From contig DUDG01000007.1 of assembly GCA_012959395.1 (NCBI GenBank), positions 2,501 to 42,721 on the forward strand: a stretch of DNA of 40,221 bases, in the 5' to 3' direction. The notes below the pieces were generated by a model. The model was not told the DNA's origin and made no database searches. It saw only the letters and a list, made by a program, of their open reading frames with translations. The position numbers were made by a program, and so were the translations under genes. Within the stretch, counting starts at the first letter, position 1; every line of letters starts with the position of its first letter. This stretch comes from Flavobacteriaceae bacterium. GTDB taxonomy: Bacteria; Bacteroidota; Bacteroidia; Flavobacteriales; Flavobacteriaceae. Positions 9,438 to 40,221 of the stretch are shown piece after piece.

Positions 9438-11954
9438 ATGAGATTTTCAAGCTATTTAATCATTTTATTTAGTTTTATTTCTTATTCTCAAGATCAAATT
9501 GATTTAGCTTATTATTTAAACGATTTAGACTCTTATAATCAAAGTATCCCTAAGCCTAGCGATTATTTATTAAATAATAAAGAAGTAGGGAGTTCTCATA
9601 TAAGCCATGATAGACTCGTGCAATATATGTATGCTCTAGCAGAAGCGTCAGATAGAATAACTATTGAAAATAGAGGAACAACATTTGAAGGAAGACCTCT
9701 AATATTATTGACAATTTCGTCAAAAAAAAATCACGAAAATTTAGAATTCATAAGAACGGAACATCTTAGTCTAAACACTATAGATAGTTCAAAAAAAGAT
9801 TTAAGTAATATGCCTGTAGTTATTTATCAAGGTTACTCAATTCATGGAAATGAACCCAGCGGAAGTAATGCTTCTATGATTTACGCATATTATTTAGCTG
9901 CCTCTAAAGGTCCTGAAATTATTAAAACTTTAGAAAACACTATTATATTACTTGACCCATCATTTAATCCAGATGGATTACAAAGATTTGCTCACTGGGC
10001 TAATACAAACAAAAGCATGTACCTAAACTCTGATAATTCAGATAGAGAATTTTATGAAAATTGGCCAGGTGGAAGAACAAATCATTACTGGTTTGATATG
10101 AATAGAGATTGGCTACCTGTTCAGCTTCCTGAGTCAAAAGCTAGAATTAAAACGTTTCATAAATGGTCCCCAAATATTTTAACAGATCATCATGAAATGG
10201 GAAGTAATTCTACTTTCTTTTATCAACCAGGAATTCCAACAAGAGTTAATCCCTTAACACCAAAAGAAAATCAAACAATAACTGCTGAAATTGGAAAGTT
10301 TCATGAAAAAAAACTTAGTGAAATAGGTTCTTTATTCTATAGTGAAGAAGATTATGATGATTTCTATTACGGAAAAGGCTCAACATTTCCAGATATTAAC
10401 GGAAGTGTGGGTATATTATTTGAACAAGCAAGCTCTAGAGGACATCTACAGGATAGTGAAAATGGTAAAATTTCTTTTCCTTTTACTATTCGAAATCAAT
10501 TAACAACTTCTTTTTCAACCCTAGAATCAGCAGAAGCTTTAAGAGAAAAATTATTAGAATACCAAAGAAGTTTTTTTAATAACTCAAGAAAAGATTCATC
10601 GAAAAAAAATAATGAATATTATTTAATTGGCGATAAAACAGATAAGTCAAAATTATTTCATTTTTATGAATTATTAAAAAGCCATAAAATTAAAATAAAG
10701 ACTCTTTCTAAAAATCTAACCATCAACAATATAGAGTTTAAAAAAGAAAATTCTTTTTTAATTCCAAAAAATCAAAATAAAAGTAGATTAATTGAAGCTA
10801 TGTTTGAAGAAAAAACACAGTTCAAAGACAGTCTTTTTTATGATATATCTGCGTGGTCATTTTTACACTCTTTTAATTTAGAGTTTACAAATTACTCTAC
10901 TAAACTTAAAACAGAAGAGCTAAAACTAGAAAAACCCAAGGGAAAAATAATCAACAAAAATAATTATGCTTACCTTTTTTCTTGGGATGACTATTATACA
11001 CCTAAGGCATTATATAAACTTTTAAACAAAGGAATAAGGGTTAAAGTAGCTACAAAAACCTTTAAGGTTGAATCTAAAAATTTTGATTATGGTACTTTAC
11101 TTGTTTCAATGCAAAATCAAGATTTAAATGTTGATCAAATAAATGAAATTCTGATCTCATTAACCAAAGAAACTGGGATATCATTTCATGGCTATAAATC
11201 AAGTAATACATCAGGAATTGACTTAGGAAGCAAACATTTTGTTAAAGTTTCTAAACCTAATATTGCTTTAATAGTTGGAGAAGGAATCAGTAGCTATGAT
11301 GCAGGTGAAATCTGGCACTTACTTGATACTAGATACCAAATTCCAATAACAAAAATTAAAAAATCAAATTTACTTTCTCAAGATCTATCAAAGTATAATA
11401 CCATAATTTTATCTAATGGAAGGTATAATCTTAATAATGATATAATTGAAAAAATAAAAACTTGGGTTAAAAATGGTGGAAATTTAATAGGGTTTAGAAG
11501 TGCTGTTAACTGGTTAAATAAAAATAAATTTATTTCTATTGATTTTAATAACAATAAACCATCAGCAATTGATATTAAATTTAAAGATAAAGGTAATTTT
11601 TATGGCTCTCAATTAACTAGTGGTGCTATTTTTAATACTATTTTAGATAAGTCTCACCCCATCAATTATGGATATTACAAGAACAGTTTGTCTGTGTTTA
11701 GAAATACAAATATTTATATTAAAAATGACTCTGTTAGTTACAATAATCCCATTAAATACTCAAACAATCCACTCATTAGCGGATACATTTCAAAAGAAAA
11801 TTTAAAGTCTATAAAAAACTCTAGACCATTTGCAGTCTTTAATTATGAAAAAGGTAAAATAGCAGTATTTACTGATAATACAAATTTTAGAGCATTCTGG
11901 TACGGAACAAACAAATTAATGATGAATGCTATTTTCTTTGCTGATTTAATGTAA
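9438..11954 (+). CDS. M14 family zinc carboxypeptidase with C-terminal amidotransferase-like domain
   Basis: This 838-residue secreted metallopeptidase has a signal peptide (residues 1-18). The M14 domain spans about 45-380. Zinc ligands are His136 and Glu139 in HGNE plus His251 or His252 in TDHHEMG, and Glu329 in ILFEQ is the likely general base. After a linker, about residues 610-838 form a class-I-glutaminase-like fold (ALIVGEGISSYDAGE, then ISGYISKENL and FAVFNYEKGKIAVFTD), without an obvious catalytic Cys. Large M14 proteins of this layout are common in marine Bacteroidota and probably break down peptides in the periplasm. Its last 70 residues match the second half of the relic at 39303-39653. 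It follows the PUR-alpha-like gene closely and converges on the next gene with one base between stops. Confidence 0.9.
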   Translation: MRFSSYLIILFSFISYSQDQIDLAYYLNDLDSYNQSIPKPSDYLLNNKEVGSSHISHDRLVQYMYALAEASDRITIENRGTTFEGRPLILLTISSKKNHENLEFIRTEHLSLNTIDSSKKDLSNMPVVIYQGYSIHGNEPSGSNASMIYAYYLAASKGPEIIKTLENTIILLDPSFNPDGLQRFAHWANTNKSMYLNSDNSDREFYENWPGGRTNHYWFDMNRDWLPVQLPESKARIKTFHKWSPNILTDHHEMGSNSTFFYQPGIPTRVNPLTPKENQTITAEIGKFHEKKLSEIGSLFYSEEDYDDFYYGKGSTFPDINGSVGILFEQASSRGHLQDSENGKISFPFTIRNQLTTSFSTLESAEALREKLLEYQRSFFNNSRKDSSKKNNEYYLIGDKTDKSKLFHFYELLKSHKIKIKTLSKNLTINNIEFKKENSFLIPKNQNKSRLIEAMFEEKTQFKDSLFYDISAWSFLHSFNLEFTNYSTKLKTEELKLEKPKGKIINKNNYAYLFSWDDYYTPKALYKLLNKGIRVKVATKTFKVESKNFDYGTLLVSMQNQDLNVDQINEILISLTKETGISFHGYKSSNTSGIDLGSKHFVKVSKPNIALIVGEGISSYDAGEIWHLLDTRYQIPITKIKKSNLLSQDLSKYNTIILSNGRYNLNNDIIEKIKTWVKNGGNLIGFRSAVNWLNKNKFISIDFNNNKPSAIDIKFKDKGNFYGSQLTSGAIFNTILDKSHPINYGYYKNSLSVFRNTNIYIKNDSVSYNNPIKYSNNPLISGYISKENLKSIKNSRPFAVFNYEKGKIAVFTDNTNFRAFWYGTNKLMMNAIFFADLM

Positions 11955-38030: not shown

Positions 38031-39263
38031 ATGGAATTATTAACAATTAACAATGTATGGATGATGATCTGTACTGCACTTGTATTTTTTATGCACCTTG
38101 GATTTTCATTTTTAGAAATTGGACTTACAAGACAAAAAAATACAATCAATATTTTATTTAAAAACTTTTTTGTAATTACAATGGGCTTAGTAGTCTACTG
38201 CCTTGTTGGCTTTAATTTAATGTATCCAGGTGATTTTAATTTAATCTCAAGTGGAATACTTGGGTTTGCCGGTTTTGGTTTAGAAGCACCCTTAATTGAT
38301 GGTGGGTTAGATTTAGCATATAGCGAAGGCTACACTTACTGGACTGATTTTTTATTTCAAGGTATGTTTGCTGCTACAGCAGCAACTATAGTTTCGGGAG
38401 CAGTAGCTGAAAGAATTAAAATCAACAGCTTTATGCTTTTTTCAGTTTTATATGTTGGAATAGTATATCCAATTGTAGGCTCATGGAAATGGGGAGCTGG
38501 TTTTTTAGATAGCTTAGGGTTTTATGACTTTGCCGGTTCTACTTTGGTTCACTCAGTTGGTGGATGGGCAGCACTAGTTATAGTTTATTTCCTTGGAGCA
38601 AGAATTGGAAAATTTGATAAAAATGGAAAATCAAGAGCAATTCCAGGTCATAATATTCCTTTAGCATCAGCCGGAGTTCTTATCTTATGGTTAGGTTGGT
38701 TTGGCTTTAATGGAGGATCTGTACTCTCTGCTGACCCAGCAAACACTTCTCTAACTTTAGTAACTACTTGTTTAGCTTCCGCAGCTGGTGGTCTTTCAGC
38801 AGCATTTATCTCAACAATGATGTATAAAAAATTAGATATCACAATGTTTATGAATGGTATTTTGGGAGGTCTTGTAGGAATTACAGCTGGAGCAGATCAG
38901 ATGGGACCAACGAGTTCAATTCTTATTGGAATCATAGCTGGATTAGTAGTGGTACTTTCTATTAGATTTATAGAAAAAAGAAAGCTAGATGATCCTGTTG
39001 GAGCAATTGCTGTACACTTGTTTTGTGGAATTTGGGGAACATTAGCTGTTGGAATATTTGGAAATATGGCAAGTTTTGAACAATTCATAATTCAGTTATC
39101 AGGTGTAGGAGTTGTAGGTTTATTTTGCGTTGTTTCATCTGTAATTCTAATTCTTTTAATTAAAAAAATGTGTGGATTAAGAGTTTCTGAAAAAGAAGAA
39201 AAAGAAGGTTTAGATTTAGCAGAACATGGAATGGATGCTTATGCTGATTTTAGAATAGAATAA
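38031..39263 (+). CDS. amt: Ammonium transporter, Amt family
   Basis: This is a 410-residue, eleven-helix transporter without a cleaved signal peptide. Asp166 and the first pore His174 lie in YDFAGSTLVHSVGGW, and the second pore His329 in GAIAVHLFCGIWG; they match Asp160, His168 and His318 of E. coli AmtB. The transporter brings ammonium across the inner membrane and is probably gated by the PII protein encoded 15 bases before it. The cytoplasmic C-terminus, GLRVSEKEEKEGLDLAEHG, keeps the conserved regulatory tail, and no PII domain is fused to it. Confidence 0.96.
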   Translation: MELLTINNVWMMICTALVFFMHLGFSFLEIGLTRQKNTINILFKNFFVITMGLVVYCLVGFNLMYPGDFNLISSGILGFAGFGLEAPLIDGGLDLAYSEGYTYWTDFLFQGMFAATAATIVSGAVAERIKINSFMLFSVLYVGIVYPIVGSWKWGAGFLDSLGFYDFAGSTLVHSVGGWAALVIVYFLGARIGKFDKNGKSRAIPGHNIPLASAGVLILWLGWFGFNGGSVLSADPANTSLTLVTTCLASAAGGLSAAFISTMMYKKLDITMFMNGILGGLVGITAGADQMGPTSSILIGIIAGLVVVLSIRFIEKRKLDDPVGAIAVHLFCGIWGTLAVGIFGNMASFEQFIIQLSGVGVVGLFCVVSSVILILLIKKMCGLRVSEKEEKEGLDLAEHGMDAYADFRIE

Positions 39264-39302
39264 ATTAAATTTTATACCTATTTTCATGTAAAATTACTTT
39301 TC

Positions 39303-39653
39303 ATGAAAAAAATAAATTATATAAAGCTGCAGTGTATTTCATTTTTTATACTGCAGTTTTTTTTTATAAACTCTCAAGATAATTTCAGTCAAGGTACTTA
39401 TGAACAATTAATTATTAGAGGAGTCACTCTAATAAATGAAAATGGATCCCCTCATATTGATGGATATATTTCCAAGAAAAATATGGAAAAATATTTGAAG
39501 TCATCTGCATCTCTAATAGTTTCAAAAATTGGAAGTGGTAGAGTTGTTTTATTCGCTGATAATCCAAATTTTAGAGGATCTTGGTATGGAACCAACAAAT
39601 TGTTTTTAAACGCACTATTTCTAGGAAGTAACATAAATGTTCCTGGAGAATAA
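39303..39653 (+). pseudogene. Chimeric relic: amidohydrolase N-terminus joined to M14 peptidase C-terminus
   Basis: The 116-codon frame is intact but combines two gene ends. Residues 1-50 (signal peptide, then YEQLIIRGVTLINENGSP) match the start of the amidohydrolase that follows (FEQLIIRGATLINGNGAP). Residues 53-107 (DGYISKKNM, GRVVLFADNPNFRGSWYGTN, KLFLNALF) match the last 60 residues of the M14 peptidase at 9438-11954 (SGYISKENL, GKIAVFTDNTNFRAFWYGTN). Both catalytic parts are absent. The simplest origin is a deletion between an amidohydrolase gene and an adjacent M14 peptidase gene. It may still make a small secreted protein. A terminator-like hairpin lies over its signal-peptide codons. 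The gene stands 39 bases after amt. Confidence 0.75.
39323..39365 (+). terminator. Terminator-like hairpin inside the 5' end of the chimeric frame
   Basis: A 14-bp stem (39323-39336 with 39347-39360, two G-U pairs, core CTGCAG) has a 10-base loop and is followed by a T-run through 39365. It has the shape of an intrinsic terminator, 60 bases after the amt stop codon, and may end the porin-PII-amt transcript. Confidence 0.65.
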
Positions 39654-39678
39654 TTAAACTAATAAATTATTAAACAAA

Positions 39679-40221
39679 ATGAAAAAGATATTATTTATTA
39701 CCCTAATCAATTTATTTTATTACAACTTTTCTATCAGCCAGATAGCAGAAGCTCCTGAACGTTTTAGAGGAGAAGGTCCTTTTGAACAATTAATTATAAG
39801 GGGTGCAACACTAATCAATGGTAATGGAGCACCCCCAATAGGGCCAGTAGATGTAGTAGTTGAAGACAATAAAATAGCAAGCATAAGAAGTGTTGGGTTT
39901 CCAGGTCTTGAAATTAATGAAAACAGAAGACCTAAAGCAATAAAAGGTGCAAAAGAAATTAATGCTCACGGCATGTATTTATTACCTGGCTTTATTGATA
40001 TGCATGGTCATATTGGAGAAACAACCAGAGGAAGAGCGGATTATGTTTATAAACTATGGATGGCTCATGGTATAACAACCATTCGTGACCCTGGATGCGG
40101 AAACGGTTTAAAATGGGTGCTCAAACAAAAAGAAGATAGTAGAAAAAATAAAATTACAGCTCCAAGAATTCTTGCTTATACATGGTTTGGACAAGGTGCA
40201 GAAAATGGAATAAATTCTCCA
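39679..40221 (+). CDS. Amidohydrolase family protein, N-terminal part (cut by window edge)
   Basis: The first 181 codons of a secreted metal-dependent hydrolase are present; the frame is open to the edge. A signal peptide (about 1-20, ending SISQ) is followed by the small beta domain (FEQLIIRGATLINGNGAPP) and the start of the barrel with metal motif His109-x-His111 in PGFIDMHGHIG, then ITTIRDPG. The pattern fits imidazolonepropionase-like amidohydrolases of Bacteroidota, which are often dipeptidase-like. The substrate is unknown. It begins 25 bases after the chimeric relic and shares its N-terminus. Confidence 0.9.
   Translation, partial: MKKILFITLINLFYYNFSISQIAEAPERFRGEGPFEQLIIRGATLINGNGAPPIGPVDVVVEDNKIASIRSVGFPGLEINENRRPKAIKGAKEINAHGMYLLPGFIDMHGHIGETTRGRADYVYKLWMAHGITTIRDPGCGNGLKWVLKQKEDSRKNKITAPRILAYTWFGQGAENGINSP

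Follow-up and report, generated by a model that had tools for sequence, protein, structure and literature searches.

Xenologous gene displacement in situ, in the sense of Omelchenko et al. (2003, as cited in PMC2783167), is the replacement of a native gene by a foreign orthologue at the same place, while the neighbouring genes stay. The joining of foreign DNA at microhomology beside a homologous anchor has been described in natural transformation as homology-facilitated or double illegitimate recombination (de Vries and Wackernagel 2002; Hulter and Wackernagel 2008, as cited in PMC4437187). Literature searches that were not specific to the genomes treated here returned no report on the amt/chimera locus.

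The window, that is the whole stretch of 40,221 nucleotides analysed, corresponds to positions 2501-42721 of contig C7, up to the contig end, in a draft genome of 1.49 Mb and 46 contigs (67.67% complete), here called G000, of the genus g1. Behind the ammonium transporter gene amt it carries a short hybrid ORF and then the start of an amidohydrolase gene (Table 1). With a probability of about 0.85, sequence comparison identifies the hybrid as the left-hand seam of a gene replacement in situ across genus borders, in which an amidohydrolase gene of a relative from genus g160 of the same family (AH-B) would have overwritten the middle of the native one (AH-A).

Table 1. Features of the window, in window coordinates
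Feature	Position	Strand	Evidence or remark
M14-A peptidase of the window	9438..11954	+	Pfam Peptidase_M14; 47% aa to second half of the chimera, a relative and not the parent
amt (ammonium transporter), native left flank	38031..39263	+	Pfam Ammonium_transp, E 4.5e-115; 71-75% aa to genus-mate amt
5' remnant of native AH-A, ~49 codons, signal-peptide-like start	39303..39448	+	84% nt to G007 over 39213-39431 (219 bp); 78-79% to G009, G011, G013, G016, G017
First copy of the 8-bp repeat ATGAAAAA, at the AH-A start	39303..39310	+	Sequence comparison
Left joint, in frame at a shared proline codon	39449..39459	+	3 exact shared bases (39449-39451)
3' remnant of donor M14-B, last 65 codons and stop	39449..39653	+	100% aa, one synonymous difference to L085; 95.7% nt to G195, 91.9% to G382 (longer match)
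Donor spacer between M14-B and AH-B, 25 bp	39654..39678	+	Within the contiguous donor match
Donor AH-B start, cut by the contig end	39679..40221	+	Last 32 codons and right joint on contig C8 of G000 (L212, 1-150)
Second copy of the 8-bp repeat ATGAAAAA, at the AH-B start	39679..39686	+	G008 has the structure expected from loss of the 376 bp that separate the copies

The hybrid frame and its native half

The ORF check of the window recovered a frame of 116 codons at 39303-39653 on the forward strand. Judged from its sequence matches, it is a true chimera of an amidohydrolase 5' end and an M14 peptidase 3' end, as the initial annotation had proposed, and both matches lie far above chance. Residues 1-53 align with the amidohydrolases of genus-mates: the nearest full-length ones show about 70-73% identity (best E 6.2e-20, G009), and G007, whose contig stops there, shows 86% over 43 residues. 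Residues 48-116 share 90% of amino acids with an M14-type peptidase of G195 (E 1.9e-38). The fusion is in frame and keeps the signal-peptide-like start, and both catalytic regions are lost, again as first described. Neither the chimera nor its first half has a Pfam match to the amidohydrolase superfamily (PF01979/PF07969), the core being absent, and the chimera has none to Peptidase_M14 (PF00246), a domain that occupies residues 58-314 of the 841 of full-length M14-B, outside the retained part. No Pfam cut-off is reached by either half or by the whole, and in NCBIfam the whole frame has no match. Failure of either half to reach its parent family in a profile search had been named beforehand as counting against the fusion, so that the initial reading partly fails this check; the parentage rests on the direct matches.

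These matches revise the origin of both halves. The next gene downstream, to which the first half had been matched, is a relative at only 45% amino acid identity, the closest sequences being the genus-mate amidohydrolases that directly follow amt. Similarly, the M14 peptidase of the window, M14-A, is a distant relative of the second half, whose parent is a different gene, M14-B of g160. A parentage from within the window was therefore dropped, since the two genes are relatives and neither is the real parent.

The AH-A start was found in 18 of the 21 other genomes of g1; no amidohydrolase start was found in G003 and G018, and G008 has a different one. It lies directly 3' of amt in all 12 fetched genus-mate loci that have an AH-A start, whether the gene is whole or truncated where a contig stops (11 by a blast match of amt, including the G007 stub, and G012 by ORF order only). 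The ancestral order would be that of the genus-mates, PII - amt - AH-A - (alpha/beta hydrolase) - pyrF - prfA - AIRS-domain gene. The names amt, PII, CrcB, PRA-PH, alpha/beta hydrolase, OMP decarboxylase (pyrF) and peptide release factor (prfA) are based on Pfam, and MazG-like (the PRA-PH gene) and purM (the AIRS-domain protein) are our own labels. In G000 only stubs of AH-A and no intact native copy were found, in an assembly that is 67.67% complete. Upstream of the PII - amt - AH-A block, G010, G005 and G002 (L047, L048 and L049) carry one more amt-like gene, whose product of 427 aa matches the Amt of the window at 42%. In G004 the AH-A start occurs with equal scores on two contigs (C19:11259-11417 and C48:703-861) and may be duplicated or assembled twice.

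AH-A and AH-B are 61-62% alike in protein, and in full length both match the amidohydrolase superfamily; their best NCBIfam match is Xaa-Pro dipeptidase at 79 and 83 bits, far below the cut-off of 500 bits. They are perhaps exported amidohydrolases that degrade exported peptides.

A match to the full 116 residues was found in G000 only, among 100 relatives and, at the DNA level, among 22 genomes of the genus; the same holds among the matches listed for 397 genomes of the family (down to about E 5e-16). No match over the whole chimera was present in the best 80 of 465 candidates from GTDB r220. All of these 80 loci match the second half, with no match to the first half within 90 nt upstream; the 50 second-then-first pairs within 400 nt agree with ordinary tandem M14-B - amidohydrolase genes, and otherwise the first half is absent. 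An old family of short proteins was rejected on this distribution, and the fusion stands as recent, as had been supposed. In viral contigs, the 23 bases spanning the left joint had 0 matches.

The probable donor gene pair and the two joints

Ancestry switches at 39449-39451, with genus-type DNA to the left and g160-type DNA to the right as far as the contig end. The junction had been placed at 39453-39461; it is real, but the switch lies a few bases further left. On the right, a 375-bp match to the GTDB contig CAJWCT010000013.1 (L085) has 99.5% nucleotide identity, and the longer matches to G195 (760 bp) and G382 (761 bp) have 95.7% and 91.9%. Over the 11 bases of the joint, 9 are shared by G011 and G013, 7 by G016, and 6 by G009 and G017, genus-mates that serve as proxies for the parental AH-A of this species. 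Microhomology at this joint is weak, as the exact run of 3 has a P of 0.075, and the 9 of 11, seen in only two of the five proxy genes, a P of 0.0027. Only one draft assembly shows the left joint, which lies there 773 bp from the contig end.

By these matches the second half of the chimera is derived from the M14-B gene of another genus, g160, where M14-B and AH-B travel together. Among the 95 M14-B instances in the fetched loci, which count some genomes twice (e.g. G195 as L086 and L181, G382 as L087 and L182), 62 are directly followed by AH-B and none is preceded by an amidohydrolase, 6 of them having no more than 300 bp of upstream sequence. AH-B of the window shares 94-97% of amino acids with its g160 counterparts, whereas other genes common to both genera share about 56% (pyrF and CrcB), 69% (purM), 71% (MazG-like) and 71-77% (prfA). 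AH-A and AH-B hold an equivalent position relative to pyrF and prfA. In a tree of amidohydrolase N-termini, AH-B of G000 and of G008 fall within the g160 clade (100/100), beside G195 (100/92), and not with the 11 AH-A sequences of their own genus, which form a separate clade. The tree has 73 rows (L086, L087, L121 and L134 were omitted as duplicates, together with rows with too little N-terminus), its g160 branch is oddly long (1.69), and in the row of G008 only 48% of the columns are occupied.

The alignment of M14-B C-termini comprises 39 of the 72 listed, plus M14-A. An AlphaFold model of the last 290 residues of M14-B is of moderate quality (mean pLDDT 61.5), and Foldseek returned low TM-scores with it, GH42 enzymes coming first and the ThuA-like 1t0b at a TMq of 0.44-0.46; the domain is tentatively predicted to be ThuA/GATase-like. 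In L035 (G003) and L036 (G020), M14-B lies away from the amt locus, without an adjacent amidohydrolase.

When G000 was searched with AH-B, the final 32 codons of the gene turned up where another contig, C8, begins, next to a pyrF of the genus type (82% aa to G011). Directly past the AH-B stop, C8 continues with the 3' end of native AH-A, ~14 codons long (KKKENFKIKQPGLD-stop; G017 has KKKENFEIKQPGYN-stop), and then with native genus DNA (82.5% nt to G011 over 2.4 kb, 78.3% over 5.35 kb), so that the AH-B end, the AH-A stub and the native flank stand in one piece. At this right joint the donor and AH-A of G017 share 10 exact bases, for which the random expectation is 2e-5; in the alignment, G009, G011 and G016 share fewer than G017. 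Sequence flanking both joints, the donor clade and a native stub at each end are thus all present. Since the native 5' end of AH-A is in the chimera and its 3' end lies past AH-B on C8, AH-B sits inside AH-A, both ends of which survive as stubs. C7 and C8, which are not physically joined, are probably neighbours, with some 320 codons of AH-B in the assembly gap; AH-B would then have amt on its left and the alpha/beta hydrolase and pyrF on its right.

The locus in a second species

G008 also has AH-B between native flanks, with the same right joint as G000. Of a 138-bp match between the two, the 102 bases of AH-B up to the joint are identical, and all 3 differences belong to the AH-A stub. Close to the start of AH-B the two genomes have 4 differences in 320 bases, none of which changes an amino acid. 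The AH-B stop is TGA in G000 and G008, and TAA in G195 and G382. G008 lacks the chimera: its AH-B opens with the start codon of AH-A, the arrangement that a deletion of the 376 bp from one 8-bp start-codon repeat to the other would leave. Since G008 has the right seam without the chimera, the chimera is dispensable there. The state of G008 could also be the product of an independent import with a different left crossover.

A tentative extension, which we hold to be rather doubtful, is that AH-B is a roaming allele that displaced AH-A at amt in at least two species of the genus (G000 and G008), perhaps independently, with the same right joint and different left joints. The in-frame chimera would then be the immediate product of import, and G008 its cleaned-up state, reached by deletion between the 8-bp repeats.

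The G008 contig that bears the right joint (C125, L213) starts with an AH-B fragment in inverted orientation (1-126), followed by the direct copy; the inverted fragment is probably an artefact of assembly or amplification. Contigs ending inside AH-B are C7 and C8 of G000, C129 of G008, C2 and C23 of G195, and L085, as expected if a near-identical gene in co-occurring species breaks assembly.

Mechanism, alternatives and comparison with known systems

The imported piece, from a g160-type relative, would have begun within the final 65 codons of M14-B, taken in AH-B and ended 3-13 bp beyond the AH-B stop, and would have replaced AH-A from about codon 50 to its last ~14 codons. Pairing between AH-A and AH-B may have guided a homology-facilitated illegitimate recombination, probably completed in one step, and AH-B presumably took over the job of AH-A. 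The chimera would be a passenger that is translated; at most it may serve as a leader, its unbroken frame carrying transcription and translation into AH-B, 25 bp downstream.

The initial annotation had explained the fusion by a deletion within an amidohydrolase-M14-amidohydrolase array of this lineage that joined the first gene to the second, which we now consider scarcely credible. The in-frame joint and the frequent order of M14-B followed by an amidohydrolase (62 of 95) agree with it, but none of the 95 M14-B instances (6 of them with at most 300 bp of upstream DNA) has the upstream amidohydrolase, the DNA to the right of the joint comes from another genus, and the AH-A tail beyond AH-B on C8 would not be left by a simple array deletion, which is contradicted unless C8 is unrelated to C7. 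The same end product would be obtained if a longer M14-B - AH-B piece had entered AH-A and a later deletion had taken most of M14-B and the middle of AH-A, and the two genes do travel together in g160; this is unlikely, as it needs one extra event and as its intermediate was not seen in the 22 genus genomes searched.

Assemblers normally need a shared word much longer than 3 bases. A misjoin of two co-occurring organisms at the left joint, where only 3 exact bases are shared, would have arisen far below that length, even if the closeness of the joint to the contig end, the near-identity of L085 to its right and the lack of the chimera in any other genome all speak for one. Moreover, AH-B lies within native DNA on C8, which is an independent contig, and again in another genome, G008, and the 5' and 3' stubs of AH-A in G000 are mutually consistent, so that we give this explanation little chance. 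We hold it equally improbable that the chimera is a useful small exported protein, a gene born by fusion and retained. It has an open frame, a signal-peptide-like start and an in-frame joint, and the sole difference of its M14 part from L085 is synonymous, but one difference is too few for a test of selection on so young a chimera. What it has of M14 is only a piece of a larger domain, AlphaFold gives no confident fold for the chimera (mean pLDDT 34.9, 17-row alignment), and G008 has the imported gene without the chimera. The chimera is most likely an ordinary trace of gene transfer and not a new working gene, and the locus warns against taking every small in-frame hybrid ORF next to a transferred gene for a new gene, since it may be a seam.

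Replacement of AH-A by AH-B is most likely an in-situ xenologous gene displacement with illegitimate joints, an event of a known kind that is here unusually legible: seams, donor clade and an apparently tidied version in a second species can all be read for a foreign orthologue that took the place of a native gene in uncultured Flavobacteriaceae. As in the displacement outlined by Omelchenko et al. (as cited in PMC2783167), AH-B stands at the place of the native gene and groups with a foreign clade, and the neighbours are kept, on the probable adjacency of C7 and C8. In contrast to that outline, both joints and the native stubs are readable, and the end of a donor neighbour gene was brought along, making the chimera. 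The locus may resemble homology-facilitated illegitimate recombination, as summarized in PMC4437187, in a possible join at microhomology (10 exact bases on the right, 3 on the left) beside a homologous anchor, here the candidate AH-A/AH-B pair, and differs in that both ends, not one, look illegitimate. Finally, as in the M14-B - amidohydrolase gene pair of Flavobacteriaceae, the probable source of the import, the second half of the chimera, the spacer and the next gene match contiguously, but only the last 65 codons of M14-B are present.
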